Source: Nitrosopumilus adriaticus
Lineage (GTDB): Archaea > Thermoproteota > Nitrososphaeria > Nitrososphaerales > Nitrosopumilaceae
Reading direction: 5' to 3'
Assembly: GCF_000956175.1 (NCBI RefSeq)
Contig: NZ_CP011070.1
Location: 806,001 to 870,000, forward strand
Length of the DNA stretch: 64,000 bases
This document shows, piece by piece, positions 7,385 to 25,071 of the stretch. The notes beneath the pieces are model-generated. The model was not told the DNA's origin and made no database searches. It was given only the letters and a program-made list of their open reading frames with translations. Every line of letters begins with the position of its first letter. The stretch's first letter is position 1. Made by a program: the position numbers and the translations under genes.

Positions 7385-8133
7385 GGCCTATTCCAAGAAT
7401 TTCAACTAGGGGGTACTATGATCTATCAAATGGAAAAACTCTCAAAAATAATCCATATTATTTTTATCCAAAACCTGATTTTAAGAAATTAATCAATTCT
7501 AAGGAAATCACCATTATGATTCATGGATTAAGAAACGATAATGCAGGTGCTGTAGCCAAAGTAATATTGGCAAAAAACCGGTTACGAAAATTAGGCTATG
7601 TATTTCCTATAATTGGGTATAGCTATGATTCTAACACAAAAGGTGCCCATTTGATAAAACATGCAAAACATGCTCTAGCAGTCGGGCAAATAATTGCAAA
7701 GAAAAATGGACGAAATCTTGGTCTGTTTATTGAAGATTTCAAGAAATTAAGTCCTACTACAAAAATTAGATTGATGGGTCATTCATTAGGATCGCAGGTA
7801 ATACTGAGTACCTTGGAGTATCTCTCAAAAAATAAACAAAATGTTGGCTTGATTGAAGGTGTTTATTTTTTTGGCGCATCAATTACCGAAGATGTACCTT
7901 CATCAAAAAAATATGGAAAAATTCTTCAAAACATTGTAAATAAAAAAATTGTTAACCATTATGCTCCTTCTGATGAAGTACTTGGTTGGGCAGATAATGA
8001 AAAATATGTCAAAGGTCCGTTGGGTCTTAATGGTGCTATTGGAAAAACAATCAGCAAATATCATCAAAAACTAGTAAAACCAAAAAATCATAGATTTGCA
8101 AGTTATGCTGCAGTATTATCTTCATTTCCGTGA
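7381..8133 (+). CDS. Alpha/beta-hydrolase, lipase-like
   Basis: The 250-residue protein has the nucleophile elbow GHSLGS near residue 134 and an oxyanion-loop segment IMIHGLRNDN near residue 45, both typical of serine alpha/beta-hydrolases. The candidate acid and histidine are in YAPSDEVLGWAD and near HRFASYA at the C-terminus. No signal peptide is seen. The substrate is unknown. Translation is coupled to metG through a 4-base overlap, but no functional link to tRNA charging is evident. Confidence 0.75.
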   Translation: MRPIPRISTRGYYDLSNGKTLKNNPYYFYPKPDFKKLINSKEITIMIHGLRNDNAGAVAKVILAKNRLRKLGYVFPIIGYSYDSNTKGAHLIKHAKHALAVGQIIAKKNGRNLGLFIEDFKKLSPTTKIRLMGHSLGSQVILSTLEYLSKNKQNVGLIEGVYFFGASITEDVPSSKKYGKILQNIVNKKIVNHYAPSDEVLGWADNEKYVKGPLGLNGAIGKTISKYHQKLVKPKNHRFASYAAVLSSFP

Positions 8134-8210
8134 CTATTTTTAGCTAATTCGCTAAATTTTTAGCTTAAATTTAAAGTCAGTTTAATACCTATTTTTGTAC
8201 ATCATAACAT

Positions 8211-8339
8211 ATGAGCAAAAAAACAAATATCTGTTGTCTTGGATGTGGGTTTGGAAAAGCATACTTGGTAATGGATTTTAGATATAATGGCTTACGTGGT
8301 AATTGTCCTAATTGTGGGGGAAATTGGCCAGAATCTTAG
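8211..8339 (+). CDS. Zinc-ribbon microprotein, 42 aa
   Basis: This short ATG frame encodes CLGCG near residue 9 and CPNCGG near the end, two CxxC-type pairs separated by about 20 residues with aromatic residues between them. This is a compact zinc ribbon. The ATG follows a run of AT-rich promoter-like sequence. It precedes the winged-helix regulator by 36 bp on the same strand. The function is unknown. Confidence 0.65.
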   Translation: MSKKTNICCLGCGFGKAYLVMDFRYNGLRGNCPNCGGNWPES

Positions 8340-8375
8340 CAATAAAGTAAAAAACAATGTGTTTAATCATTTGTT

Positions 8376-9023
8376 ATGTTAGGAAATTATGATGCAGAAA
8401 AAATAGCATCTGTGTTTCTAGAATTATCAAGCGAGCAACGCCTTAAAATAATTCTCAGATTGGAGCAGGAAAAAACAAAGATGTCTGTTCTTGCAAAAGA
8501 ACTTGATGCGACTGCTCCTGAAATACACCGAAATTTTACACGCCTTTCCAAAGCTGGATTAATTGAAAAAGATGTTGATGGTAATTATGGTTTGACAAAT
8601 TTTGGCAAAACTGTATTTGCTCAAATTAATTCACTAATGTTTGTGCCAAACCACAAGAATTATTTTAAAAATCATACTTTCTCTACTCTCCCTAACAAAT
8701 TTATTCAACGAATAGGTTCTCTTAATGAATCTGAACTTGTTACCGGTTTCATCAAAGTAATGGAACTTTGGAATGCTATTTACAAAAACTCTGAAGACTA
8801 TCTTTACAATGTCTTAGTTGAAGTTCCCTATGATGCTAATTTGATCAAAACACTTACTGATAGACTAAAAAATAATGTAAAGATAAAATCTATTTTTTCT
8901 GAATCGGCTAATGTTTCCAAAGAAAGAAAATCTGTAATCAATCAATCTTTTTTCAAGAAATTCATTATGGATGAATCTATTAAAAGAAAAATGAATAAAA
9001 AATCAGCATTGTCCTTGTTTTAA
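8376..9023 (+). CDS. Winged-helix transcriptional regulator, N-terminal part (frameshifted)
   Basis: Residues 1-75 form an ArsR-like winged helix (SSEQRLKIILRLEQ, MSVLAKELDATAPEIHRNFTRLSKAGLIEK). Residues 85-205 resemble the middle domain of the archaeal FilR1/DUF1724 regulator family. The frame ends abruptly after MNKKSALSLF. The missing C-terminus (NQREAGICFPTTDG, FHEWCFDYF) is intact in the next frame at 8999-9193. Adding one A to the A6 run at 8997-9002 would give a continuous protein of about 270 residues, the normal family length. It is either a sequencing error or a true frameshift. Confidence 0.8.
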   Translation: MLGNYDAEKIASVFLELSSEQRLKIILRLEQEKTKMSVLAKELDATAPEIHRNFTRLSKAGLIEKDVDGNYGLTNFGKTVFAQINSLMFVPNHKNYFKNHTFSTLPNKFIQRIGSLNESELVTGFIKVMELWNAIYKNSEDYLYNVLVEVPYDANLIKTLTDRLKNNVKIKSIFSESANVSKERKSVINQSFFKKFIMDESIKRKMNKKSALSLF

Positions 9024-9193
9024 ATCAAAGAGAAGCTGGAATTTGTTTTCCAACTACTGACGGTGAAATTGATATGAGTAAGATGCTATATGGTGATTCT
9101 GCCTTGTTTCATGAATGGTGTTTTGATTATTTTGACTATCTTTGGAGGGATTCTAATTCTTTTCAAGAGACTAAACTTGGTCCTAATAATTAG
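8999..9193 (+). pseudogene. Displaced C-terminal fragment of the winged-helix regulator
   Basis: In the frame one base back from the upstream ORF, this open stretch of about 64 codons reads IVLVLNQREAGICFPTTDG and then FHEWCFDYFDYLWRD, ending at the TAG at 9191-9193. It has no start codon of its own. It matches what is expected at the C-terminus of the FilR1-like regulator family, so it belongs to the gene starting at 8376. The break is at the A6 run 8997-9002. Confidence 0.8.
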
Positions 9194-9200
9194 GGTGTAT

Positions 9201-10619
9201 TTACCACCTGAATTGATAACAATCATGAACATTTATCACTTTATTTTTTAATGATTTCCAAACAATTTCAGTTTTCCCTCTTTTCACATTAGTTTGAGGT
9301 GGTGGTTTTGCAAGGATTTTTTCACCCAATTGATTAATTTTGAGCGCTTTTGCCTCAATTCTGAAATTTTTAGGAATTTTAAAAACATATTTGAATTTCT
9401 TACATTTTGCTAAAAACACATATTCAAAAATTCTATCTGGCTCTTCCCAATCATATTCTAAAGTGATTAAATCTGATTTGTTATGCTTAATCGGTTTTGC
9501 AAGTTCAACTAAGAATTTTTTTTCAAGTGGTTTATTTGTGTCTGTATGCCCAATTCTTAATTTATTTCCTTTTTTGTCTTTCACTGTTAAATTGATATCT
9601 TTGAGATTGTCTTTTGGAACCTCTCCTCCAATCTCGTAATATAGATCTGTTAGTGGTTTCTTTGATATGTTTTTCACATCCCATACCCATGTGTGATGTG
9701 TCATCATGTTTTTTGTGTTGCTCACATCTAAGCGAATTTCAATATTTTTGAACTCAAATTTTTTAGTTGGATCGGCATCTTCTTCTAAATTGATTTTATC
9801 TTTTTTGGGTATGTGCTTATTTCCAAAAGTTTTTCCAAAAATATTGTATATTGATAATTTATCTCCGTGTTTTATTTGATATTCTCCAATTGGATGCATG
9901 ATGCTTTCATATTCTGGTGCTAATTTACTAATATCATCACCAATTCTACCTGAAGCAAATATCTGATTCTCTTCACAAAGATCCATGACTCTACGTGCCA
10001 TTATTATTCCTGGGCCCCAAACTGTATCTTCATTTTCAATATCTTTGATAAAATATACCGGGCCTGTATCTAGCCCTATTCTAATAAAAATTCTATCACT
10101 TACTCTGTGAGTTTTATTGTATTTGTTTAGCAATTTGTGTAGATCAGTGGCTAATCGTAATGGTTGTTCTGGACTTTCTGAAAAACCAATTGCCACCCCG
10201 TCCCCTGTAGGCAATATGACTGTCGTGTTGACATCTCTTTTTTTAAATGTCTCTGTATTTTGAATTTGTTGATTCAAAATGCTGATTTTCCTAATCTGAG
10301 CTTTTGTGGAATTTTTGGGATTTGAACTTCCTACAATATCTGTGAAAAACCAATGAAGCGTTTTTGTAAGTGTTTTTACTTCACTTACGGAAAATTCTTC
10401 TAATTTTAATAATTTATGAATATAGTTAACCGTGTTGATTTGCATTGAATTTAAAATCTCATAACTATTTGATGTTGGGGATGTTTTTAGAGTGATTCTG
10501 TTTTTCTTTAGTTCTTCTAAGAGCCAATCTTTTGTTTTTCCATACTCTTCCATCCGGCCCTGAATTTCTGCAATTTTTTTTACTTTGTTATTTGAATTTC
10601 TATGTTTTTTATTTATCAA
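9201..10619 (-). CDS. Class III nucleotidyl cyclase with extra C-terminal domain
   Basis: Residues about 88-260 are a class III adenylate/guanylate cyclase domain. Both metal-binding aspartates are present (Asp94 in FFTDIVGSS, and the Asp in TGDGVAIGF), together with RIGLDTGPV. In the segment normally carrying the catalytic Asn and Arg (VNxAxR) the sequence is IIMARR: the Arg is kept but the Asn is not obvious. An N-terminal helical part of about 85 residues precedes it. The last 185 residues form a beta-rich, charged domain that I do not recognise (HTWVWDVKNISKKPLTD, WEEPDRIFEY). No membrane segment is seen. It is divergent from a second cyclase at 10894. Confidence 0.8.
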   Translation of the reverse strand: MINKKHRNSNNKVKKIAEIQGRMEEYGKTKDWLLEELKKNRITLKTSPTSNSYEILNSMQINTVNYIHKLLKLEEFSVSEVKTLTKTLHWFFTDIVGSSNPKNSTKAQIRKISILNQQIQNTETFKKRDVNTTVILPTGDGVAIGFSESPEQPLRLATDLHKLLNKYNKTHRVSDRIFIRIGLDTGPVYFIKDIENEDTVWGPGIIMARRVMDLCEENQIFASGRIGDDISKLAPEYESIMHPIGEYQIKHGDKLSIYNIFGKTFGNKHIPKKDKINLEEDADPTKKFEFKNIEIRLDVSNTKNMMTHHTWVWDVKNISKKPLTDLYYEIGGEVPKDNLKDINLTVKDKKGNKLRIGHTDTNKPLEKKFLVELAKPIKHNKSDLITLEYDWEEPDRIFEYVFLAKCKKFKYVFKIPKNFRIEAKALKINQLGEKILAKPPPQTNVKRGKTEIVWKSLKNKVINVHDCYQFRW

Positions 10620-10893
10620 TATTTTTGACTATGTGTACCAGATAAAATCATTTTTCGTGATATTTACTCTAAACAACTCTCAGTTTTCTCTGATTTGGGT
10701 CTCAGTGGTTCTTAAAACCAATGCCTAAATTAAGACAGTTCCGCTTCCTTTTCCAAAACACTCGGTTTCATTTTCTATTTTCATACGTTCATACTGCTCT
10801 GAAACTATACATTATTGGATGTTTTGATTGCAGCTAATTTCTTCTCATTTTAGCTAAATACCCTATATGTTAATTTTCTGACATTGATTCCTC
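10620..10893 (+). promoter_or_regulatory. Divergent intergenic region between the two cyclases
   Basis: This 274-bp gap carries the upstream regions of both cyclase genes. On the plus strand a TATA-like CTATATG (10863-10869) lies about 25-30 bases before the ATG at 10894, which predicts a leaderless mRNA. I see no ORF with protein-like composition and no RNA gene. Confidence 0.5.
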
Positions 10894-11616
10894 ATGGGTA
10901 AAAACTTCTCAGATTTGTATGGTAATTCGTTGCCTGACAATTTTTTTGATTATGCTGAATTATCTCCATTAAATGCTGATTTGCCTGAATCTACAGGTTC
11001 TGTCCTTTTAGATGACTTGAAGCCACGTGAATATTCTGTTGCTTTTGATAGTAAGTGCAAGAGCTATTGCATTGGATGTGTGGATATGGTGAACTCTACT
11101 AAAATCTCTGCACATCTAGGAACAGGAAAAATCTCTCGCTACTACCAGATCTTTCTAAACTCCATGTCAAAAATTATTGGAGAATATGGTGGAACTGTAA
11201 TCAAAAATATTGGGGATTGTTTAATGTATTATTTCCCTTCTTCTGGAAGATACAATAACACTTTTGGGTTTATGAGTTGCATTGAATGTAATCTGTGCTT
11301 AGTTGAAGCCCATGATTTTATTTGTGAGCAACTTCGTCAAGAAGGTTTACCAAACTTAGATTATAGAATTAGTTCTGATTATGGTGCTGTTTGTATTATG
11401 CAATCTACTGATTCATCCTCTCTTGACATGATAGGGCCTCCTGTTAACATGTGTTCCAAGATTAACCGAATTGCCAAACCAAATCAGGTTGTAGTTGGTG
11501 GGGACTTTCATCAAATGGCAAAATCCTTGAAAGAATACAATTTCAAATCTACGAGTGATTATTCCCTAGGGTACAAGTTTTCTTATCCTGTTTATTCAGT
11601 TTCGAGGAAACTTTGA
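10894..11616 (+). CDS. Class III adenylate/guanylate cyclase-like protein
   Basis: This 240-residue soluble protein contains a cyclase homology domain over about residues 55-235. The metal ligands are in CIGCVDMVNSTKIS and KNIGDCLMYYF. The catalytic-loop motif is GPPVNMCSKINRIA, keeping the Asn but replacing the usual Arg by Lys. It therefore complements the neighbouring cyclase, which keeps Arg but not Asn. Cyclases with incomplete loops may act as heterodimers or use other nucleotides. That is an inference. There is no sensor domain beyond about 50 N-terminal residues. Confidence 0.8.
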   Translation: MGKNFSDLYGNSLPDNFFDYAELSPLNADLPESTGSVLLDDLKPREYSVAFDSKCKSYCIGCVDMVNSTKISAHLGTGKISRYYQIFLNSMSKIIGEYGGTVIKNIGDCLMYYFPSSGRYNNTFGFMSCIECNLCLVEAHDFICEQLRQEGLPNLDYRISSDYGAVCIMQSTDSSSLDMIGPPVNMCSKINRIAKPNQVVVGGDFHQMAKSLKEYNFKSTSDYSLGYKFSYPVYSVSRKL

Positions 11617-11743
11617 GGTTTTTAGATATGAATGATAAATTAATATATAAACAAAATAAAATGTTCTTAATAGAGTATGTTCTTATTCTAGCAACAAATG
11701 TTTCCAATAAAATACTATTTGATTATTATGGGATTTGGAAGGA

Positions 11744-13579
11744 ATGAAGTCCTTCTATAAAATCTATGTTTTAGTTTTCATTTCATCTATCTTATTGATT
11801 CCTGCGTTTCCATTACAGGATGCTTATGCTGTAACTACAATTGTATGGAGATTATCTGGTGGAATTGTTACTGGTGCTCCTCTGAACCAAGGGGATGCCT
11901 TTGGCACTGATTTTGTTTCAGTACGTGTCACTGATACAGATTTGGGTGCAAATGGAAATTCTCTTGAAACAATTAATGTTGTACTTACTGGAACTACTAC
12001 TGGCGATTCTTTTACACTGACTCTTACGGAAACTGGAGATTCTGGTGTTTTTGACAGTGGAGATATTGTTTTGATGAACGGAAATGATAGATTTCTGACT
12101 TCTGATACTGGTACTGCTACAATTGCTGATGCGAACTGTTCTGGCGTATGTGATGTCGGTGCAATTGATACACTGGTTGGAGTTTCTGGCGTTGAGGGAA
12201 TGGATATTTTCTCTGATGAAGATGGTGGAACAACACCCATCACTTTAACCTTGGTTGAAACTGGTTTAGATACTCGCGAATTCATTGCTTCATTTGATTT
12301 TGTTACATCTGGTACCTCAAGCGGTTCCTCTCTACGAGTGAATCCTGGTAGTGTTATCACCTATATCGATAATGAGGATTTTGAATTTAACAATGGTTAC
12401 ATTCTAGGCGGACCTGCAAATGAAGGTGCTATCTCTGTAGTTCCTCCAAGTGATGAAGTAATTTCTGCTGGTGAACATGTTGCCCGTGCTACCTATAATG
12501 GAGTATCTGCCGATTTGGATATTACTGATGACTTTGCTGGTGGGAGGGGTTCTGGCGGATTAATTCGTCCTGGATTGGTAGTTGATTCTGTTGCCCCTAG
12601 TCCCACTAATACTGAATCAAGTTCTGGGAGTGGTTGTTCTGGAGATTGCACTCCACCAACTGTTGGGGTTGATTCAAATTTGAAGAGAATTGTAGAAAAT
12701 GGCTTTTCTTTTAATGGCAATCCTGTAAATGCTGAGTTGTATTATACCCCATATCCTTTAGTCACAGTCAATGTTGGCCAACAAAATAAGGTTGAACTGA
12801 AAATATTTGATGATGCCGGTTTTGAGAATATTGCGCATGTGGGTTTGGGGTTTGGTCTTGGAAATGGTGAATCCTTTGATAAAAGTAGGGTCACAATTAA
12901 TTTAGATATGACCCGTGATGGACAAAATATCTTATCTAAGGTTGATCCTGAGAATGTTCTAGAAAATGTTGCAATAATTACAGACAAAGTCCCATGCAAT
13001 TCTACTAGTTCTGTTTTGTGTCTAAAGGTGATGATATTTCATACTTTTCGAGCCCCTCTAGAATTTAATATGCTTGCAACATACATTTGGGATCATTCAA
13101 AGAATGCATGGCAAAATTACTATAATCATGGGATACACATTGAAGGTGATTCTTTGAATCCTCCAAAAGAATATTCTGGAATCCATAAAGGTCACCTCAT
13201 TCATTTATTTGAAACAGGGAAAAATATGGCAATTGACAGTAGTGGAAATACTTGGACATTTGACAAAACTTGGAAAATGGATTATATCCCACTTGAAAAA
13301 CCAATTGATGGCATTACACAACATGGGATTGATAGGAATAACGCATGGTTTGAATCTTACAAAAAAGGTCAAGAACTACTTGCTGAAGAAAAACTTGATC
13401 TAATGTTGGATGATTTAGAAACCGAAGAAAATTCTAAGCATGCCCCTCAAACACACTATGGCGATTTCTATAATTCATCAGAAAACATTCAACTACAATC
13501 TGATATAAAATTTCAAAAACTAAAGGCAAAATACATTTTTTCACAATTGTATGATGTAAAACATAATTTCCAAAAATGA
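11744..13579 (+). CDS. Large secreted surface protein
   Basis: The ATG at 11744 (GGAAGG just before it; a TTG at 11735 is an alternative) gives a clean signal peptide ending in QDAYA. Residues about 30-220 hold two copies of a beta-rich repeat with signatures TLTLTETGDSGVFDSGD and ITLTLVETGLDTREF, a pattern seen in large thaumarchaeal cell-surface proteins. A Ser/Gly/Cys linker (CSGDCTPP) leads to a conserved C-terminal region of about 300 residues with WDHSKNAWQNYYNHGIH. No transmembrane anchor is visible, so it may be released or bound to the S-layer. The function is unknown. Confidence 0.8.
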   Translation: MKSFYKIYVLVFISSILLIPAFPLQDAYAVTTIVWRLSGGIVTGAPLNQGDAFGTDFVSVRVTDTDLGANGNSLETINVVLTGTTTGDSFTLTLTETGDSGVFDSGDIVLMNGNDRFLTSDTGTATIADANCSGVCDVGAIDTLVGVSGVEGMDIFSDEDGGTTPITLTLVETGLDTREFIASFDFVTSGTSSGSSLRVNPGSVITYIDNEDFEFNNGYILGGPANEGAISVVPPSDEVISAGEHVARATYNGVSADLDITDDFAGGRGSGGLIRPGLVVDSVAPSPTNTESSSGSGCSGDCTPPTVGVDSNLKRIVENGFSFNGNPVNAELYYTPYPLVTVNVGQQNKVELKIFDDAGFENIAHVGLGFGLGNGESFDKSRVTINLDMTRDGQNILSKVDPENVLENVAIITDKVPCNSTSSVLCLKVMIFHTFRAPLEFNMLATYIWDHSKNAWQNYYNHGIHIEGDSLNPPKEYSGIHKGHLIHLFETGKNMAIDSSGNTWTFDKTWKMDYIPLEKPIDGITQHGIDRNNAWFESYKKGQELLAEEKLDLMLDDLETEENSKHAPQTHYGDFYNSSENIQLQSDIKFQKLKAKYIFSQLYDVKHNFQK

Positions 13580-13693
13580 AAATTTTTTATTATGTTTTGA
13601 TTCCCTACATTGTTTAGATTCTTAAATTATGGCTGTTAATACTATGATTGAAATACCTTCTGATAATTGGGAATAGAAAATTACTTGATAAAT

Positions 13694-14431
13694 TTAATAT
13701 CTTTTAAAATCGTGCCTAGCTAGCCTTCTATTTCTCATTCGTGTAATTCTGTTTTCTGAAAGTTCTCTTTTACCATATTTTTTTTGTAGTCTTGAAATGT
13801 CTCTCGGATGCAATACGAAGGCATTTGGATGATCAAGAGATTTTGAAAAAGGCCACATTATGGCATCCTTACTTTTAATATCATGACGTAGTCCAATTTT
13901 ATGTATAAATTCATGCATGAACACATGTAACAGTGATTCTGATTTAACTTTGGTCTTACTATCTTTTTTGTAATGTATGGGATCAATTAGTTTACCTGGT
14001 ATTTGATCTCCATAAACTGTCCAAAAATGATTGTCATTAAAAACAATTTTTTTATGATCTGGTTTTTTTGATAAATCTCTTGGGATTAAGTGTGCATAAG
14101 CTAAAATTTGTGGATTTTTTATAAATTCAGGATCATCCTGTGTAAAATAGATATCTATATCTGTATTTTTTGAAATGTCTCTTTCTCGTTTGAATCTGAT
14201 ATTTTTAATATGAAGCCCTATGGCTCTTACTCCTACCACTACTGCTTTGGTTTGAATTTTTTTTGATTTGATATCTTTTGAATGTGAAATTATTTTGTAT
14301 GTGACAATTCCATCTGGATATTTGTATGGCCATTCTAATTGCTCAATTTCATTTTTTTTCTTATTTTCATTTACCTCTAAAAATTCTTTTCCGTAATACC
14401 CATCAGGACTTTTTATAAAATGACATTTCAC
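13694..14431 (-). CDS. Metzincin-type zinc metalloprotease without signal peptide
   Basis: Residues 173-183 read HEFIHKIGLRH, the extended zinc-binding motif HExxHxxGxxH. Met192 in DAIMWPF is a likely Met-turn, so this belongs to the metzincin clan (matrixin-like). At 245 residues it has no signal peptide or membrane helix, so its cellular location is unclear. The C-terminus is Arg/Lys-rich. It is divergent from the larger secreted metzincin at 14648. I do not recognise a specific subfamily. Confidence 0.8.
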   Translation of the reverse strand: MKCHFIKSPDGYYGKEFLEVNENKKKNEIEQLEWPYKYPDGIVTYKIISHSKDIKSKKIQTKAVVVGVRAIGLHIKNIRFKRERDISKNTDIDIYFTQDDPEFIKNPQILAYAHLIPRDLSKKPDHKKIVFNDNHFWTVYGDQIPGKLIDPIHYKKDSKTKVKSESLLHVFMHEFIHKIGLRHDIKSKDAIMWPFSKSLDHPNAFVLHPRDISRLQKKYGKRELSENRITRMRNRRLARHDFKRY

Positions 14432-14647
14432 GGTGTGTTCTTTCCCAATAGTTAAAAATAAGACTAATAATTAACTTTTCATATGTTCTTATTTTTCAAT
14501 AATATTTTAATAATAAAAAATTCATTTAATAATATTAATTTATAAAAATATTATAAAATAATATATTAAAATCTTAAAAACTTATAATCATTTTATAAAA
14601 TGATCATAGTTATAGCATAGTATGAATATTTGATTCTGTTGGGCGGT
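14432..14647 (+). promoter_or_regulatory. Very AT-rich divergent promoter region
   Basis: This roughly 215-bp stretch between the two metalloprotease genes is almost pure A/T at 14480-14600, with several repeated AATAATATT and TTATAAAAT elements. TATA-like matches are too many to choose from. No ORF is supported. Confidence 0.4.
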
Positions 14648-17038
14648 ATGGAAAAATTAATTGGTACTTCGTTGCCAATTTTATTTACTATATTATTTCT
14701 CATAAATACTCCTAATGTAAATGCTCAATCCGTTGAAGAATTTGGGTTTGATCAACATCCATATGTTGTAAGTTCTGCAACTCCCACTCATGGAGGTTTG
14801 ATGTATTATAATTTTGATTTGGCAGGAAATGGAAATCCTAATGATTCAAAAGTTGCACAAATTATTAGTTCCTGTTATTCTGAACCTTTCCCTGTCTTCT
14901 TAAATGAAACATCTGGACTTGATGATGGGTGGCTATACAGTAAAAGAATAAATTTTGTAGATACATTGTGCCCTAATCCAAATTCAACTCCTCCTTCTAC
15001 TACTAATGTTGATTTTGATATGCATGTGGATCCAACATCTACTGATCCTCTACAAGCAAACTTGACAACATCTGTATTTTTAACTGATTCTTCTGATATT
15101 GTGCCTCCTTCATTATCCGGTTTACAGTGGTCTCCGAAAAAATCTGATGGAAATTACGCTGTTTGTGTAAATGATGTTGATAATGATGCAATTTGTGACG
15201 AATTTGAAAACAATGTGAGCCATTTAGAGATAAATTATCCTCCAGGTACTTCCATCTACAAACTTAATGATACGACATCTCTTGGAAATTGTGACTATTT
15301 TGCATTGATAGATTCTTCAGTACCTTGTTCTGGTTCAGATAAGAAGGATCTTTGGATTGAATTTGATTATATGGAGAGTTTTCCACTTAATGATGATGCA
15401 TTAAAAGATGTACGGGAATCCTTTTGGAAACATGATATTAGAGTTCATTTTATTGTTGATGAAGCAATTCCTAATCAAGAATACCTAAAACCCGGAGGTG
15501 TTAACCATTTTAGATTTTTTGGAACTGATCAAGTAAAATCATTCTATTTTGGAACTCCCACAGAGCGTGATGCTCTTGATTGGAATTCATTGGGGTGGAA
15601 ACAAAAAAAGCAAGTGTTTCATTACGGTCTTTCGATAGATAAACAAAAAGGTGCTCCAACAACCTCAGGATTTGCTGAAAAATTAGGAAATGACTTTGGG
15701 ATTTCTTATGGAGGGTGGCCAAGTGGAGTTCCTACTCATAGTGCTTATCAATCTGGGACAATAATGCATGAGATTGGACACAATTTGGGTCTTGACCATG
15801 GTGGTGATTATGCGGATCCTTTGAACTGTAAACCTAACTATGTTAGTGTCATGAGTTATTCCCGTCAACTTCCAACAATATATGCCCAACCGTTAATTGA
15901 TTTTTCAAATGCTACAATTCAAAGTCTTGATGAAACACAACTCTCAGAAATTAATGGGATTGGAAATTTACCTGATGAATATTCTGATGGGGTGGTAATT
16001 GTTTATGGTCCAACTCCCGAATATATTGAAATTACAGAAAACAATCAAGATATAGATTGGAATCAAGATGGATCGATTGAACAATCCCCTGTTCAAGCTG
16101 AGATTAATTACTTAATAGATGAGGGATGTGGATTAGTTGAATACACTTCCCTATCCGGACATAATGATTGGGAATCTCTTAATTTTGATTCCAGAGGAAC
16201 TGGAAATTGGGTTGATGGTAGGATGACTTCTCCTTGCAAATATGATCCTAAAGATGAAGGAAAATCTAATTCATGTAAATCTGACAACCCCTATCATGGA
16301 AACCCTATGGGTAAAAACATCTTATCCAAATATGCTGATACAAAGAACAAGAAAGATTTCATTCCTAACTGGAATGAACGTGTTTGGTTTGGAGGTGCTG
16401 AAGAATTTACCTCTGAATTAGCTCGTGAACATTTTCTGGCAAATGCCAAGATAATAAATAATACATTTCAGAATCTTCCTGATGAATCTTTTATAGATGA
16501 TCCAAAAAGTATCAAAGAAATATACAAAAAAAGTATCAAGAAAGTTGTATCTCTAATTGAACAGCATGAATATGTGCAATCAGCTGAAGAACTAGAATCT
16601 TTACTTGGAACTATTGATGGAGAAAATGGTGATGACCTTATCAAATCTGATTTTACAACAAAACCCATAAAACAATTGAAAAATAGTATTTCTACTCAAG
16701 AATCTTTAGGATCTGGTGGCATTATACTATATAAGAACAAAGTTTCAAAATGCGAGAAAGACGAAGTTAGCGATAATTCCGGATTGTGCTTTAAAAAATC
16801 AGAATTATGCAAACCCAATCAAATTTTAGATGAAACAGGAGTATGTGTTCCCAAAGGAAATTTCTGTGGTTCTGGAACTGTGTATAAAGATGGAGTATGC
16901 TTGATGGAAGGAAAATCGCCTGGAAAGCAAGACTTGTCAATTGTTTACGGTAGCATTGGAGCAGTTATCGCATCTATCGCATTTGCAGTATTCATGGCAT
17001 CAAAATATACTTCACTGAAATCTAAAATTTCAAAATAG
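14648..17038 (+). CDS. Secreted, membrane-anchored metzincin protease
   Basis: A signal peptide ends in NVNAQS. The zinc motif HEIGHNLGLDH is at about residue 374, followed by the Met-turn VMSYS near residue 401. A calcium-binding-like DVDNDAICDEF lies before the catalytic domain. Near the C-terminus three Cys-rich modules (for example NQILDETGVCVPKG and SGTVYKDGVCLMEG) precede a single transmembrane helix and a short basic tail. The protease should thus face outside while tethered to the membrane. A TTG at 14630 is in frame, but the ATG at 14648, with GGGCGGT before it, fits the signal peptide better. A strong hairpin follows. Confidence 0.85.
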   Translation: MEKLIGTSLPILFTILFLINTPNVNAQSVEEFGFDQHPYVVSSATPTHGGLMYYNFDLAGNGNPNDSKVAQIISSCYSEPFPVFLNETSGLDDGWLYSKRINFVDTLCPNPNSTPPSTTNVDFDMHVDPTSTDPLQANLTTSVFLTDSSDIVPPSLSGLQWSPKKSDGNYAVCVNDVDNDAICDEFENNVSHLEINYPPGTSIYKLNDTTSLGNCDYFALIDSSVPCSGSDKKDLWIEFDYMESFPLNDDALKDVRESFWKHDIRVHFIVDEAIPNQEYLKPGGVNHFRFFGTDQVKSFYFGTPTERDALDWNSLGWKQKKQVFHYGLSIDKQKGAPTTSGFAEKLGNDFGISYGGWPSGVPTHSAYQSGTIMHEIGHNLGLDHGGDYADPLNCKPNYVSVMSYSRQLPTIYAQPLIDFSNATIQSLDETQLSEINGIGNLPDEYSDGVVIVYGPTPEYIEITENNQDIDWNQDGSIEQSPVQAEINYLIDEGCGLVEYTSLSGHNDWESLNFDSRGTGNWVDGRMTSPCKYDPKDEGKSNSCKSDNPYHGNPMGKNILSKYADTKNKKDFIPNWNERVWFGGAEEFTSELAREHFLANAKIINNTFQNLPDESFIDDPKSIKEIYKKSIKKVVSLIEQHEYVQSAEELESLLGTIDGENGDDLIKSDFTTKPIKQLKNSISTQESLGSGGIILYKNKVSKCEKDEVSDNSGLCFKKSELCKPNQILDETGVCVPKGNFCGSGTVYKDGVCLMEGKSPGKQDLSIVYGSIGAVIASIAFAVFMASKYTSLKSKISK

Positions 17039-17066
17039 CAAAAAGATCTTTTTAATGCTATTTTTT
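17032..17066 (+). terminator. Terminator hairpin of the metzincin gene
   Basis: A 9-bp stem (AAAATAGCA at 17032-17040 with TGCTATTTT at 17056-17064) encloses a second self-complementary element, AAAAGATCTTTT. It ends in a run of six T. The stem overlaps the stop codon. This is one of the clearest terminator-like structures in the window. Confidence 0.65.
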
Positions 17067-17380
17067 GAAATAACGGTGTACATACCAATTATGCGTTAAT
17101 GCTTTATAGATTGATCAAATTAATGGCGATATATCAAAAATGAATGACATGAACCCTTGTAGGTATTCCATTTTATTTCATCTTCATATTGTTGATGATG
17201 CCTCAGAAAACCTAGATGATCTTTTTGAATACCCTTGCTAATTTTTTTAAATTTAATTTTGACATTTTTTTATTTGTCTTGATAATTTTGAATATTAGAT
17301 AACTAGTATTTTTTTAAATAAAGTCTGATGTTTAGATAATTTTTAATACTATCCATTATTAATTATTATGATGATCATAT
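17067..17380. other. Intergenic region, no gene supported
   Basis: This AT-rich stretch lies between the metzincin terminator and the next membrane protein gene. A 33-codon frame at 17140-17241 shows no recognisable features. I see no RNA gene. The last 50 bases probably hold the promoter of the gene at 17381. Confidence 0.4.
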
Positions 17381-17842
17381 ATGATTAAAAAAATAATATT
17401 TTTTTCATTGATGATCTTTTCTTTAACTCCTTCAGTTTTTGCACAAGGCACATTTACAGAAGATCTACCAATAAATTCAAAGCCATCTGATTGGATTATT
17501 GTCATCATTGGTGTTCTTGGTGGACTTACTACGGCAGGTCTTGGAATTGCCAAAAATCACAATAAAATACAAGAAAACAGGAAAATATTGAAAGAGATTT
17601 CTCATACTGGTGATTCTGAAGTAAGTAACAAAGTAAAAGATAGTCTAAATGGTGTTTTACCAACAAAACTATCCTTTGATCCTAGCAAATTTTCAAGGAC
17701 TCTTTTGGTGTCAACCCTAACATCCATCTTACTAGCTGCAGGTTCTGCAGTAGTATTTACTGAATTAAACCCTATTACTATGATAATGATTTATGCTGCG
17801 TCCATTGGAATGAGCAGTATTTCTAAACCGGGACATAGGTAG
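17381..17842 (+). CDS. Small membrane protein, 153 aa
   Basis: A signal-peptide-like N-terminus (ends PSVFAQG) is followed by a hydrophobic helix at about 40-57 (DWIIVIIGVLGGLTTAGLG), a charged cytoplasmic-type linker with Lys/Glu-rich sequence, and two more helices at about 108-128 and 130-148. No enzymatic motif is seen. The family is not recognised. It stands alone between a terminator and a microprotein operon. Confidence 0.65.
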   Translation: MIKKIIFFSLMIFSLTPSVFAQGTFTEDLPINSKPSDWIIVIIGVLGGLTTAGLGIAKNHNKIQENRKILKEISHTGDSEVSNKVKDSLNGVLPTKLSFDPSKFSRTLLVSTLTSILLAAGSAVVFTELNPITMIMIYAASIGMSSISKPGHR

Positions 17843-17885
17843 TTTTTTGATGTTGCCGAATTAAACAGATTCTTCTTAAAAAAGC

Positions 17886-17896
17886 CGGTATATATC
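17886..17896 (+). promoter_or_regulatory. TATA box of the microprotein operon
   Basis: GGTATATATCT is a strong archaeal TATA box. Its centre lies about 26 bases before the ATG at 17917, which supports that otherwise very short ORF as the first cistron of a leaderless transcript. Confidence 0.6.
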
Positions 17897-17916
17897 TAGG
17901 GTAAACTAGTTAGAGT

Positions 17917-18030
17917 ATGTTTAAAAAAATATTTGAAAAATTAAAAATTGGTACATCCAAGACAAAATCTTCACATGATGTAAATGCATTCACAGAATCT
18001 GAAAAAAAGAAAGAGGCCAAGCTAAAATGA
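17917..18030 (+). CDS. Basic microprotein, 37 aa
   Basis: This is the first of three overlapping micro-ORFs. The product is Lys-rich and probably helical (FKKIFEKLKIG; SEKKKEAKLK), with no cysteines. Its stop overlaps the next start in an ATGA arrangement. A good TATA box lies about 26 bp before the ATG. No family is recognised. Confidence 0.6.
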   Translation: MFKKIFEKLKIGTSKTKSSHDVNAFTESEKKKEAKLK

Positions 18031-18134
18031 AATATCAATGCAGAATCTGTAATTTTCATTGGGAAGGAAATTCTGATACATTTTCCAAGGTGCTCATTCA
18101 TGAAAAGACTCACACAAAAAAGGTTTCAGCATAA
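18027..18134 (+). CDS. C2H2 zinc-finger microprotein, 35 aa
   Basis: The ORF starts inside the stop codon of the previous one. Cys5, Cys8, His25 and His29 form a C-x2-C-x16-H-x3-H pattern, longer than the classical x12 spacing, with aromatic and Leu residues between. It would fold as one C2H2-like finger and could bind nucleic acid or a protein. Its stop codon shares a base with the next start (TAATG). Confidence 0.65.
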   Translation: MKYQCRICNFHWEGNSDTFSKVLIHEKTHTKKVSA

Positions 18135-18235
18135 TGCTTACTTGCAACAAATGCTATAACAACCATCATGATCAGTGTATGGGTAAAGCTGGAATGTTTG
18201 ATTGTGCTTGTGAATGTTTTAAAAAATCAAAATAA
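18134..18235 (+). CDS. Cys/His-rich microprotein, 33 aa
   Basis: This is the third ORF of the overlapping trio. Six cysteines and two histidines occur in 33 residues (CNKCYNNHHDQC and CACECF), enough to bind one or two metal ions. It ends 31 bp before the convergent TBP gene stop. The density of metal ligands and the tight overlap argue for a real gene. The function is unknown. Confidence 0.6.
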   Translation: MLTCNKCYNNHHDQCMGKAGMFDCACECFKKSK

Positions 18236-18266: not shown

Positions 18267-18827
18267 CTAATCGTAAACCATTAAGTTTTTCTCTTCAAGC
18301 AAACTATGAATTTGATTTACAGAGCGATGAATATCTTTTTCAATTCGTGCACCAACACATACTAGTTTTCCTGATGCAAAAATTAGAATTACTGTTTTTG
18401 GATCAAGCATTCTGTGTATCAATCCTGGGAATTGCTCTGGTTCATACATACTTCTTGGAAGTGTTCTTGCTGCTTGCTCCAAATTCACTTTGCCTCCAAG
18501 ATTAATTGATGAGACGATATTTTGAATTGTAACTATGGGTTCGTTTTTGATTTTGATTTTCCCCTTTCTTAAATTTTGAACAACAATATTTACTGCCTTG
18601 ATTGCCATCTCTTCTGATTTTGCACCTGTACATACCATTTTTCCTGAGCCAAAAAGTAGTGTGGCAGTTCTTGGTGTTTTTAGTCTGAATACTGCTCCTG
18701 GGAATTGCTCTGGATGATATTCCACATCTGGAAATTTTTTTGTTATATCTACAAGATCTAATTTCTGCTCAATTGTTGCAGATGCTACTACATTGACAAT
18801 TGCTATTACTGGCTTGGTTTCTGTCAT
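18267..18827 (-). CDS. tbp: TATA-box-binding protein
   Basis: This general transcription factor binds archaeal TATA boxes. It has two direct repeats of the saddle fold, each with the signature EQFPG followed by LFGSGKMVCTGA (first repeat) or IFASGKLVCVGA (second repeat). At 186 residues it has normal length, and the C-terminal tail is short. It lies 21 bp downstream of a TFB gene on the same strand, so the two core initiation factors are likely made together. Confidence 0.97.
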   Translation of the reverse strand: MTETKPVIAIVNVVASATIEQKLDLVDITKKFPDVEYHPEQFPGAVFRLKTPRTATLLFGSGKMVCTGAKSEEMAIKAVNIVVQNLRKGKIKIKNEPIVTIQNIVSSINLGGKVNLEQAARTLPRSMYEPEQFPGLIHRMLDPKTVILIFASGKLVCVGARIEKDIHRSVNQIHSLLEEKNLMVYD

Positions 18828-18848: not shown

Positions 18849-19769
18849 CTATATCTCCGTATCTTGGTCTAATCTGAGGCCTTTGTATCTATTTCTAATG
18901 GTCACTTCAGTCACATTTGAGGCTTCTGCGATGTCTCTTTGAGTTCTATCTTCCCCATTTTTGACACATGAGAGGTATAATGCAGCAGCTGCCAGCCCCA
19001 TAGGATCTTTTCCTGCTGATTCCTCATGATCTTGAGCAATCTGCAGAACTTTGGCAGCATAGCGTTTAGTCTTCTCCGAAATGTCTAGTTTACTTGAAAT
19101 TCTTGCAATACACTGAACTGGATTAACTACTGGCATCTTTAGTTCTAATTCTTGATGTAAAATTCTATAACATCGTGAAATATCTTTTTTCTTAATATTC
19201 CCTGCATCTGCGACATCTTTTAGAGTTCTAGGAGTTTCAGTATCTCTGCATGCTGCATATAATGCAGCAGCAATTAGGGCTGAAATGGAGCGACCTCTAA
19301 CTAGACCTTTCTCCAATGCTTTTCTGTAAATGTATGATGCTTTCTCAATTACTGAATCTGAAAGTGATAATTTGTCTTTTAATGTTGATAGCTGACTGAG
19401 GGCTTGTCGTAGATTTTTATCTGCAGATGCATTGACTTTGCTCCTACTATCCCAAGTTCTTAGTCTCTCAATTGTACTTTTCATAGATGATGAAAGTGGT
19501 TTTCCAGATGCGTCTTTATTCATAGGACTGATAATTGTTGCAAGTCCTCTGTCGTGCATAGCAAGTGATGTTGGGGCTCCTGTTCTTGTAGGATCTGCTC
19601 CGCCTTCTTTTGAAAATGATCTCCACTCTGGTCCTGAATCTTGTAATGTCTCAGAAATTACAAACCCACATTTAGAACAAAATCTTTCTCCTGTAACATT
19701 GTCTGTTAACATGGATTTTTGTCCACAACGTCTACAAACACTATCTGCATTAACAGTTTCTAAAACCAA
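18849..19769 (-). CDS. tfb: Transcription initiation factor B, copy 1
   Basis: It recruits RNA polymerase to TBP-bound promoters. The N-terminal zinc ribbon has CRRCG and CSKCGF, followed by the B-reader/linker region (GPEWRSFSKEGGADPTRTG) and two cyclin repeats. I prefer the TTG at 19769, which gives the N-terminus MVLETVNADS. The longer GTG start at 19781 adds a hydrophobic MVIF not seen in the second copy. It is close in sequence to the TFB at 24151 throughout. It pairs with tbp. Confidence 0.96.
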   Translation of the reverse strand: MVLETVNADSVCRRCGQKSMLTDNVTGERFCSKCGFVISETLQDSGPEWRSFSKEGGADPTRTGAPTSLAMHDRGLATIISPMNKDASGKPLSSSMKSTIERLRTWDSRSKVNASADKNLRQALSQLSTLKDKLSLSDSVIEKASYIYRKALEKGLVRGRSISALIAAALYAACRDTETPRTLKDVADAGNIKKKDISRCYRILHQELELKMPVVNPVQCIARISSKLDISEKTKRYAAKVLQIAQDHEESAGKDPMGLAAAALYLSCVKNGEDRTQRDIAEASNVTEVTIRNRYKGLRLDQDTEI

Positions 19770-19890
19770 AAATATTACCACAATTGTTTATTTTATTTCC
19801 TATAATAACTGACTTATTTTGTGAATTTACTCAAAAATCCCTATTTTTTATTTTTCAGGCACGTTTAATGGTTAAAATAAAATCATTTTC

Positions 19891-24150: not shown

Positions 24151-25071
24151 ATGGTAACTACCAATCAAGACTCTCTTTGTTTACGTTGCGGAAAAAATTC
24201 TTTGCTTACCGACGATGTTACAGGAGAAAGATTTTGTGGTAAATGTGGGTTTGTAATTTCTGAGACATCTCAAGATTCAGGTCCTGAATGGAGATCATTT
24301 TCAAAAGACGGTGGTGCAGATCCTGCAAGAACTGGTGCACCATCATCTTTGATGATTCACGACATGGGATTGTCCACAGTAATTAATCCAATTAACAAAG
24401 ATGCTTCTGGAAAGCCACTTTCCACATCAATGAAAAGTACAATTGAGAGACTCAGAACTTGGGATAGTAGAAGTCAAGTTCATGAACCTATTGATAGGAA
24501 TCTTAGACAAGCGTTAAGCGATTTAAATAAATTAAAAGACAAGGTTGCCATCCCTGCAAATGTTCTTGAAAAAGCATCATACATTTACAGAAAAGCTTTG
24601 GAGAAAAAACTTGTTCGAGGTCGTTCTATTGCAGCAATGATTGCAGCATCACTTTATGCTGCATGCAGAGACACTGAAACTCCTAGAACCCTAAAAGATA
24701 TTGCTGATGCTGCAAATGTAAAACGAAAAGATATTGCAAGATGCTATAGATTACTTCACCATGAATTGGAATTAAAAATGCCTGTTGTAGATTCCATTCA
24801 GTGTATTGCAAGAATTTCAAGTAAACTAGACATTTCGGAGAAGACTAAACGTTATGCTGTTAAAGTTCTAAAAGATGCGCAGGAACGCAAAGAATCTGCA
24901 GGAAAAGATCCTATGGGACTGGCAGCTACTGCATTATACTTGTCATGTGTTCATAATGGGGTATCGATAACTCAAAGAGACCTTGCAGAAGCTGCAGGTG
25001 TTACTGAAGTAACAATTAGAAATCGATACAAGGGTCTCAAAGCAGATCAGAGTTCCAAATCAGAAATTTAG
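24151..25071 (+). CDS. tfb: Transcription initiation factor B, copy 2
   Basis: This second TFB is 306 residues long. The zinc ribbon (CLRCGK, CGKCGF), linker and two cyclin folds are all intact. It differs from the copy at 18849 mainly in the N-terminal tip, the linker helix (LNKLKDKVAIPANVLEK) and the tail. It follows alba closely. Having more than one TFB is normal for thaumarchaea and is thought to allow promoter-selective initiation. Confidence 0.96.
   Translation: MVTTNQDSLCLRCGKNSLLTDDVTGERFCGKCGFVISETSQDSGPEWRSFSKDGGADPARTGAPSSLMIHDMGLSTVINPINKDASGKPLSTSMKSTIERLRTWDSRSQVHEPIDRNLRQALSDLNKLKDKVAIPANVLEKASYIYRKALEKKLVRGRSIAAMIAASLYAACRDTETPRTLKDIADAANVKRKDIARCYRLLHHELELKMPVVDSIQCIARISSKLDISEKTKRYAVKVLKDAQERKESAGKDPMGLAATALYLSCVHNGVSITQRDLAEAAGVTEVTIRNRYKGLKADQSSKSEI

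Follow-up and report, generated by a model that had tools for sequence, protein, structure and literature searches.

Overlapping genes for three conserved microproteins, including a predicted C2H2 zinc finger, in ammonia-oxidizing archaea

Three short, overlapping open reading frames (ORF1 to ORF3) lie next to tbp in the window, by which we mean the whole stretch of 64,000 nucleotides that was analyzed. We are highly confident that they are genuine conserved genes forming a microprotein operon. The core promoter, ORF1, and ORF2 would together make up a recurrent, relocatable cassette, with ORF3 as an add-on gene, and we tentatively interpret the products as a small co-translated accessory module that may act on transcription or chromatin. 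The three conserved microprotein families, which belong to ammonia-oxidizing archaea, are named in none of the family libraries that we searched. The features of the locus are as follows.

17883-17895, + strand: core promoter, with a BRE-like GC-rich box AGCCGG (17883-17888) and a TATA box TATATAT (17889-17895)
17917-18030, + strand: ORF1, a basic microprotein of 37 aa with net charge +6, MFKKIFEKLKIGTSKTKSSHDVNAFTESEKKKEAKLK
18027-18030, + strand: ATGA overlap of the ORF1 stop and ORF2 start (-4 spacing), read from the sequence
18027-18134, + strand: ORF2, 35 aa, with Cys5, Cys8, His25, and His29, MKYQCRICNFHWEGNSDTFSKVLIHEKTHTKKVSA
18132-18136, + strand: TAATG overlap of the ORF2 stop and ORF3 start (-1 spacing), read from the sequence
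18134-18235, + strand: ORF3, 33 aa, with Cys 4, 7, 15, 24, 26, and 28 and His 11 and 12, MLTCNKCYNNHHDQCMGKAGMFDCACECFKKSK
18267-18827, - strand: tbp, the convergent neighbor, outside the operon, starting 31 bp past ORF3
18849-19781, - strand: tfb, the gene beyond tbp, given for context

Coding evidence for the three ORFs

A first-pass annotation had described three ORFs of 37, 35, and 33 codons, joined by ATGA and TAATG junctions, preceded by a strong TATA box, and ending 31 bp from the convergent tbp. All of these features are present at the coordinates listed above, with TATATAT beginning 28 bp before the ORF1 ATG. The annotation had also held that such tight coupling is improbable by chance, an argument that did not survive a chance model. 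In order-2 Markov sequence (64 kb, both strands), we counted chains of three ATG ORFs of 25 to 50 codons with spacings of -4, -1, 0, or +1; 0.43 such triples are expected per 64 kb, compared to the one observed. The geometry alone is therefore non-significant and makes a weak argument by itself.

This expectation of 0.43 triples per window is what favors reading the three ORFs as chance frames without function. Against it, the ORFs are conserved in tens of genomes, encode invariant ligands, and follow a fixed promoter; conservation together with the codon substitution pattern rules that reading out, and we give it practically no probability. Comparing the window to its closest relative (G074), we found 8 synonymous and 3 nonsynonymous changes in the three frames, which contain approximately 55 and 260 sites, respectively (Fisher P = 6e-5), the purifying selection that the annotation had anticipated in close relatives. 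The median pairwise dN/dS was 0.55 for ORF1, 0.43 for ORF2, and 0.14 for ORF3 (10 pairs for ORF3), and dN was smaller than dS in 91%, 99%, and 100% of the usable, non-independent pairs, respectively. An Rfam search returned no match to an RNA element beneath the three ORFs, and our literature search found no expression data for the three genes. A fourth microprotein (MNDMNPCRYSILFHLHIVDDASENLDDLFEYPC) is encoded at window 17140-17241, and recognizable relatives occupy the same place in G074 (METCLYPERNKSILYHLHILDETYDDSCDLFEYPC) and G030.

Distribution, promoter, and relocation of the cassette

Our family sample comprised 151 Nitrosopumilaceae genomes. ORF2 was found at 104 sites across 51 of them, with up to seven copies per genome, and is confined to 6 of the 22 genera in the sample; among 300 genomes from the phylum, convincing ORF2 matches were found in Nitrosopumilaceae only. 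ORF3 is present in 81 of the 151 genomes, mainly as a single copy, and ORF1 in 47 by single-sequence query or 58 by profile. Most ORF1 homologues sit immediately ahead of an ORF2. According to a refined reading, ORF1 precedes 72 of the 104 ORF2 copies (one, L094, is doubtful), and the stop-to-start spacing in 57 of these 72 modules is -4 (24 modules), 0 (13), or +1 (20).

The annotation had named conservation of the three-ORF order in other Nitrosopumilaceae as a check, and this order is conserved in part. The order ORF1-ORF2-ORF3 recurs in 11 genomes from three genera (G000, G074, G068, G139, G092, G114, G080, G098, G134 (g1), G051 (g18), G041 (g4)), but the conserved unit is ORF1-ORF2, and ORF3 is separable. 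In a first count, only 19 of the 104 ORF2 copies had an ORF3 match within the following 1.5 kb, so we regard ORF3 as modular. The three-gene unit was rejected as the conserved entity in favor of ORF1-ORF2 plus a wider, separable, and often free-standing ORF3 family. ORF1 without ORF2 is found in several genera, and ORF2 without ORF1 is found beside Alba or TFB genes. For scans of genome collections, the 75 ORF2 sequences together made too diverse a profile. The titles of the ORF3 relatives in a named genome collection are Nitrosopumilales-like, with the exception of two MAGs labeled Nitrososphaeraceae and some entries titled only archaeon or Thaumarchaeota.

Behind genes resembling ORF1, or behind promoters of the same types, other Cys-rich microproteins are encoded at L198, L200, L206, L210, and the L320 region (for example, CENCGNVFSKK...RCPACNVWKK and YVCTCDCKC...YVCNDCMMNLCKI), so alternative zinc proteins may be carried as cargo by the cassette. 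ORF1 is longer at L314 and L315 (G125 and G130), where it reaches 62 aa with a charged extension at the C terminus and lies upstream of a conserved gene of ~400 codons.

The core promoter is conserved in position. Almost all of the 72 modules have an A/T box at -28 to -23 relative to the ORF1 ATG and, ahead of it, a G/C-containing box of two flavors, ACGCCGGTATATATC and CTTGCCTTATATCC; we also denote the BRE-box-bearing cassette promoter the GCCGGTATATAT promoter. With one mismatch or fewer, CGCCGGTATATA occurs only twice in the window's genome, each time at an ORF1. Across 20 genomes, 17 of 23 CGCCGGTATATA-type matches fall at an ORF1 start; a reversed control pattern gave 18 matches overall, so it is the location and not the number of matches that is informative. 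The strong TATA box of the annotation is thus upheld, as is a predicted 5' end at the ATG: given the TATA-to-ATG distance and by analogy with archaeal promoter geometry, transcription probably starts at about 17915 to 17917 and yields a leaderless mRNA. Solitary ORF3 copies at L049, L054, L058, L062, and L063 have an upstream box like CGTCGGTATTTATCAC, which resembles the cassette core promoter.

We considered a distal AACTACTCAGCTACG motif as a simple operator but rejected this because the motif forms the 3' end of a distinct conserved element. This element of ~60 nt (CGTAGTGGTGTGAGTTTGCATATC...GGACTGAATTAACTACTCAGCTACG) is located at L203 ~1458-1515 (C1 of the window's own genome, near 1501056) and at 26 further loci, including L125, L128, L160, and L167. 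Its closing stem has undergone at least one compensatory change of a base pair (CATAG/CTATG in L158), a TATA-like box of its own lies upstream, and no Rfam family matches it. Of 20 genomes, 12 contain its 3' end, at roughly one copy each. The element often lies just upstream of an ORF1 promoter of the second flavor; the copy in the window's own genome has no cassette beside it. It may represent a small RNA that has not been described.

Comparison with close relatives bears on the extent of the cassette. In G030 and G149, only ~195 bp separate the upstream gene from tbp, and the cassette is absent there. The G030 cassette is instead located ~14 kb from that genome's tbp-tfb genes, in the opposite orientation. 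Because the sequence shared by G030 and the window begins at the core promoter and ends within ORF2, the core promoter, ORF1, and ORF2 behave as one unit. A stretch of ~9.8 kb at window 8115-17877, ending directly upstream of the cassette promoter, is absent at the same site from G074, G030, and G149; it contains two nucleotide-cyclase-like genes and genes for an HTH regulator, an M10 matrixin-like peptidase, and a reprolysin-like protein of 802 aa.

Encoded proteins and comparable systems

The description of the second ORF as C2H2-like was borne out. ORF2 has the ligand pattern C-X2-C-X16-H-X3-H of a single finger, C5, C8, W12, H25, and H29 are invariant in 75 ORF2 sequences, and AlphaFold2 predicts a beta-beta-alpha arrangement (strands 2-4 and 11-13, helix 20-33) with a mean pLDDT of 84.7. 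Foldseek returned mostly C2H2 fingers at TM ~0.5, with the non-significant E-values expected at 35 residues. ORF2 presumably binds zinc. The ligands and core are fixed, whereas positions 20 and 24 on the helix surface are highly variable, a sequence pattern that would fit a diversifying binding surface. The window protein has no match to the Pfam C2H2 profile, and C2H2 profiles weakly match some of its 75 relatives (best E 0.0015). More generally, searches of Pfam and NCBIfam found no known family for the microproteins, in line with the annotation. A viral origin was rejected: no relatives of ORF2 or ORF3 were found in IMG/VR viral contigs, and the only PHROG match to ORF2 is weak and unconvincing (E 0.038).

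Judged by potential ligands, the annotation's description of tiny metal-binding genes could apply to two of the three proteins. ORF3 has eight potential ligands, the six Cys and two His that had been noted, and C4, H12, C15, M16, K18, M21, C24, and C26 are invariant in 31 sequences; its AlphaFold2 model, with a pLDDT of 58, is uninformative. ORF2 has its two Cys and two His, but ORF1 has no metal ligands. The conserved segment of ORF1 is DVNAFKESEKK, which reads DVNAFTESEKK in the window copy. An amphipathic helix in ORF1 is suggestive across the family (mean z 1.25) and non-significant for the window copy, and we set it aside.

ORF2 resembles classical C2H2 fingers in its two Cys, two His, and predicted fold, and eukaryotic ones also in the aromatic residue two positions before the first Cys (Y3-x-C5) and in HEKTH, which recalls the H-x3-H end. 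It departs from the classical pattern (C-X2-4-C-X12-H-X3-5-H) in its Cys8-His25 spacing of X16, four residues longer, and in consisting of one finger and 35 aa in total. The C2H2-like DNA-binding protein AFV1p06 of an archaeal virus is a small single finger of the same beta-beta-alpha type (PMC3541406), but it is viral, has 59 residues, and replaces the fourth-ligand His, which ORF2 keeps, with Glu. The 2013 AFV1p06 study found no homologue in Thaumarchaeota, and the families described here include a predicted C2H2 finger family in a group where that survey found no homologue of archaeal-viral or eukaryotic fingers (PMC3541406).

By analogy, the nearest functional analogue is the set of one-domain zinc-finger micro-proteins of Haloferax volcanii (PMC6562870), although the motifs differ. 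These proteins are shorter than 70 aa, a limit that ORF2 (35 aa) and ORF3 (33 aa) also respect, have a predicted zinc site, and give conditional phenotypes when deleted (PMC6562870, PMC10716476, PMC11241148). According to the abstracts, they carry two C(P)XCG motifs; ORF2 has one CxxC (CRIC) and is of C2H2 type, and ORF3 has CNKC and CACEC (type CxxC/HHxxC/CxCxC), none of them C(P)XCG. The abstracts mention no coupled ORF1-like partner. Archaeal gene pairs with -4 or -1 spacing are translationally coupled (PMC10666635, PMC12548453) and enriched in subunits of heteromeric complexes (PMC10666635). The window junctions have these spacings, but the genes here encode putatively coupled microproteins, and the cassettes also use spacings of 0 and +1.

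Neighborhood and possible roles

We detected 5 to 11 TFB matches per genome in 18 genomes. In 14 single-contig genomes, a TFB gene lies within 1.5 kb of 9 of 31 ORF2 clusters, compared to 0.49 expected; none of 5,000 circular shifts reached the observed value, and several of the associations are orthologous, leaving an effective independent number of approximately five. Grouped by identity to the window's TFB (not by a tree), the TFBs adjoining cassettes across all loci fall into about five groups, at 82 to 100% (with tbp), 70 to 76% (partly with Alba), 57 to 59%, 44 to 52%, and 43%. The arrangement convergent with tbp also occurs in G074, G146, G075, G130, and G125, and in G086 and G134 ORF2 begins immediately past the stop codon of Alba, with an ORF3 behind it. 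The annotation had suggested that the trio is tied to transcription; the association with TBP, TFB, and Alba gene neighbors stands, whereas adjacency to tbp is found in some genomes only.

We propose that TBP and TFB would direct transcription of a leaderless mRNA from the ORF1 ATG, and that ribosomes would translate ORF1 and re-initiate at the overlapping starts of ORF2 and ORF3, giving matched amounts of the proteins. ORF2 would fold as one beta-beta-alpha C2H2 finger, a fixed scaffold whose helix surface varies between paralogues, and ORF1 would be a basic partner that binds ORF2 while both are being made. ORF3 may be a second metal-binding partner. The module might then have an accessory role, either at chromatin or with the basal transcription machinery (TBP/TFB, Alba); complex formation, contact with DNA, RNA, or TBP/TFB, and a regulatory role are what we infer. 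We lean tentatively toward an accessory transcription or chromatin factor because a putatively co-translated finger and basic partner recur beside TFB, TBP, and Alba genes. Against this interpretation, ORF2 is missing from most genera of the family and hence not essential to basal transcription; few of the TFB associations are independent, many of them being orthologous; accessory TFB genes may lie in the same variable islands as the clusters; the Foldseek matches are non-significant; and a single finger is usually a weak DNA binder.

Metal homeostasis is the main rival, one that we consider unlikely but of real weight. ORF2 and ORF3 would hold or pass zinc (or copper) as a buffering or stress module behind a metal-responsive promoter, and the transcription genes would be incidental neighbors. 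The Cys and His ligands invariant in both proteins fit this, as do the other Cys-rich microproteins behind ORF1-type promoters, and the invariant Met16 and Met21 of ORF3 are the reason for including copper. However, ORF2 keeps its hydrophobic core and is predicted to fold as a finger, unlike a flexible metallothionein, ORF1 contributes no ligands, and a metal module does not predict the TFB/Alba neighborhood. We think it improbable to a greater degree that RNA or the translation machinery is the target of the finger and its basic partner, with the TFB/Alba neighborhood arising from the RNA-binding side of Alba or from chance islands. Ribosomes commonly contain small basic zinc proteins, and eL43/L37Ae zinc motifs gave profile matches that are weak and non-significant, but the distribution within the family is patchy and positive support is lacking.

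Least probable of these alternatives is a selfish or defense-like pair of toxin-antitoxin type, in which the short basic ORF1 would be harmful and ORF2 would neutralize it. The coupled two-gene layout, the up to seven ORF2 copies per genome, and the presence, absence, and relocation of the cassette between close relatives agree with such a pair, which would explain the multiple copies, the patchiness, and the relocation. We disfavor it because ORF1 and ORF2 also occur apart, each being found without the other; in addition, the amphipathicity of the window ORF1 is non-significant.

A more specific form of action on transcription is rather improbable in our estimation, falling between the metal and RNA readings. 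The ORF2 proteins might be diversifying archaeal C2H2 co-factors dedicated to particular TBP/TFB paralogues or Alba. The GC-rich, BRE-like promoters of the cassettes would be read by alternative basal factors, which the finger and its co-translated ORF1 would steer or inhibit. If true, this would amount to eukaryote-like finger control of the basal machinery by proteins of 35 residues. Given their tiny size, nearly private core promoter, and recurrence beside TFB, TBP, and Alba genes, the cassettes offer a concrete test of whether the many TFB paralogues in these archaea work with small zinc-finger partners. A second TFB gene is located in the window at 24163-25056, ~4.4 kb further on, and shares 77% identity with the TFB that adjoins tbp.
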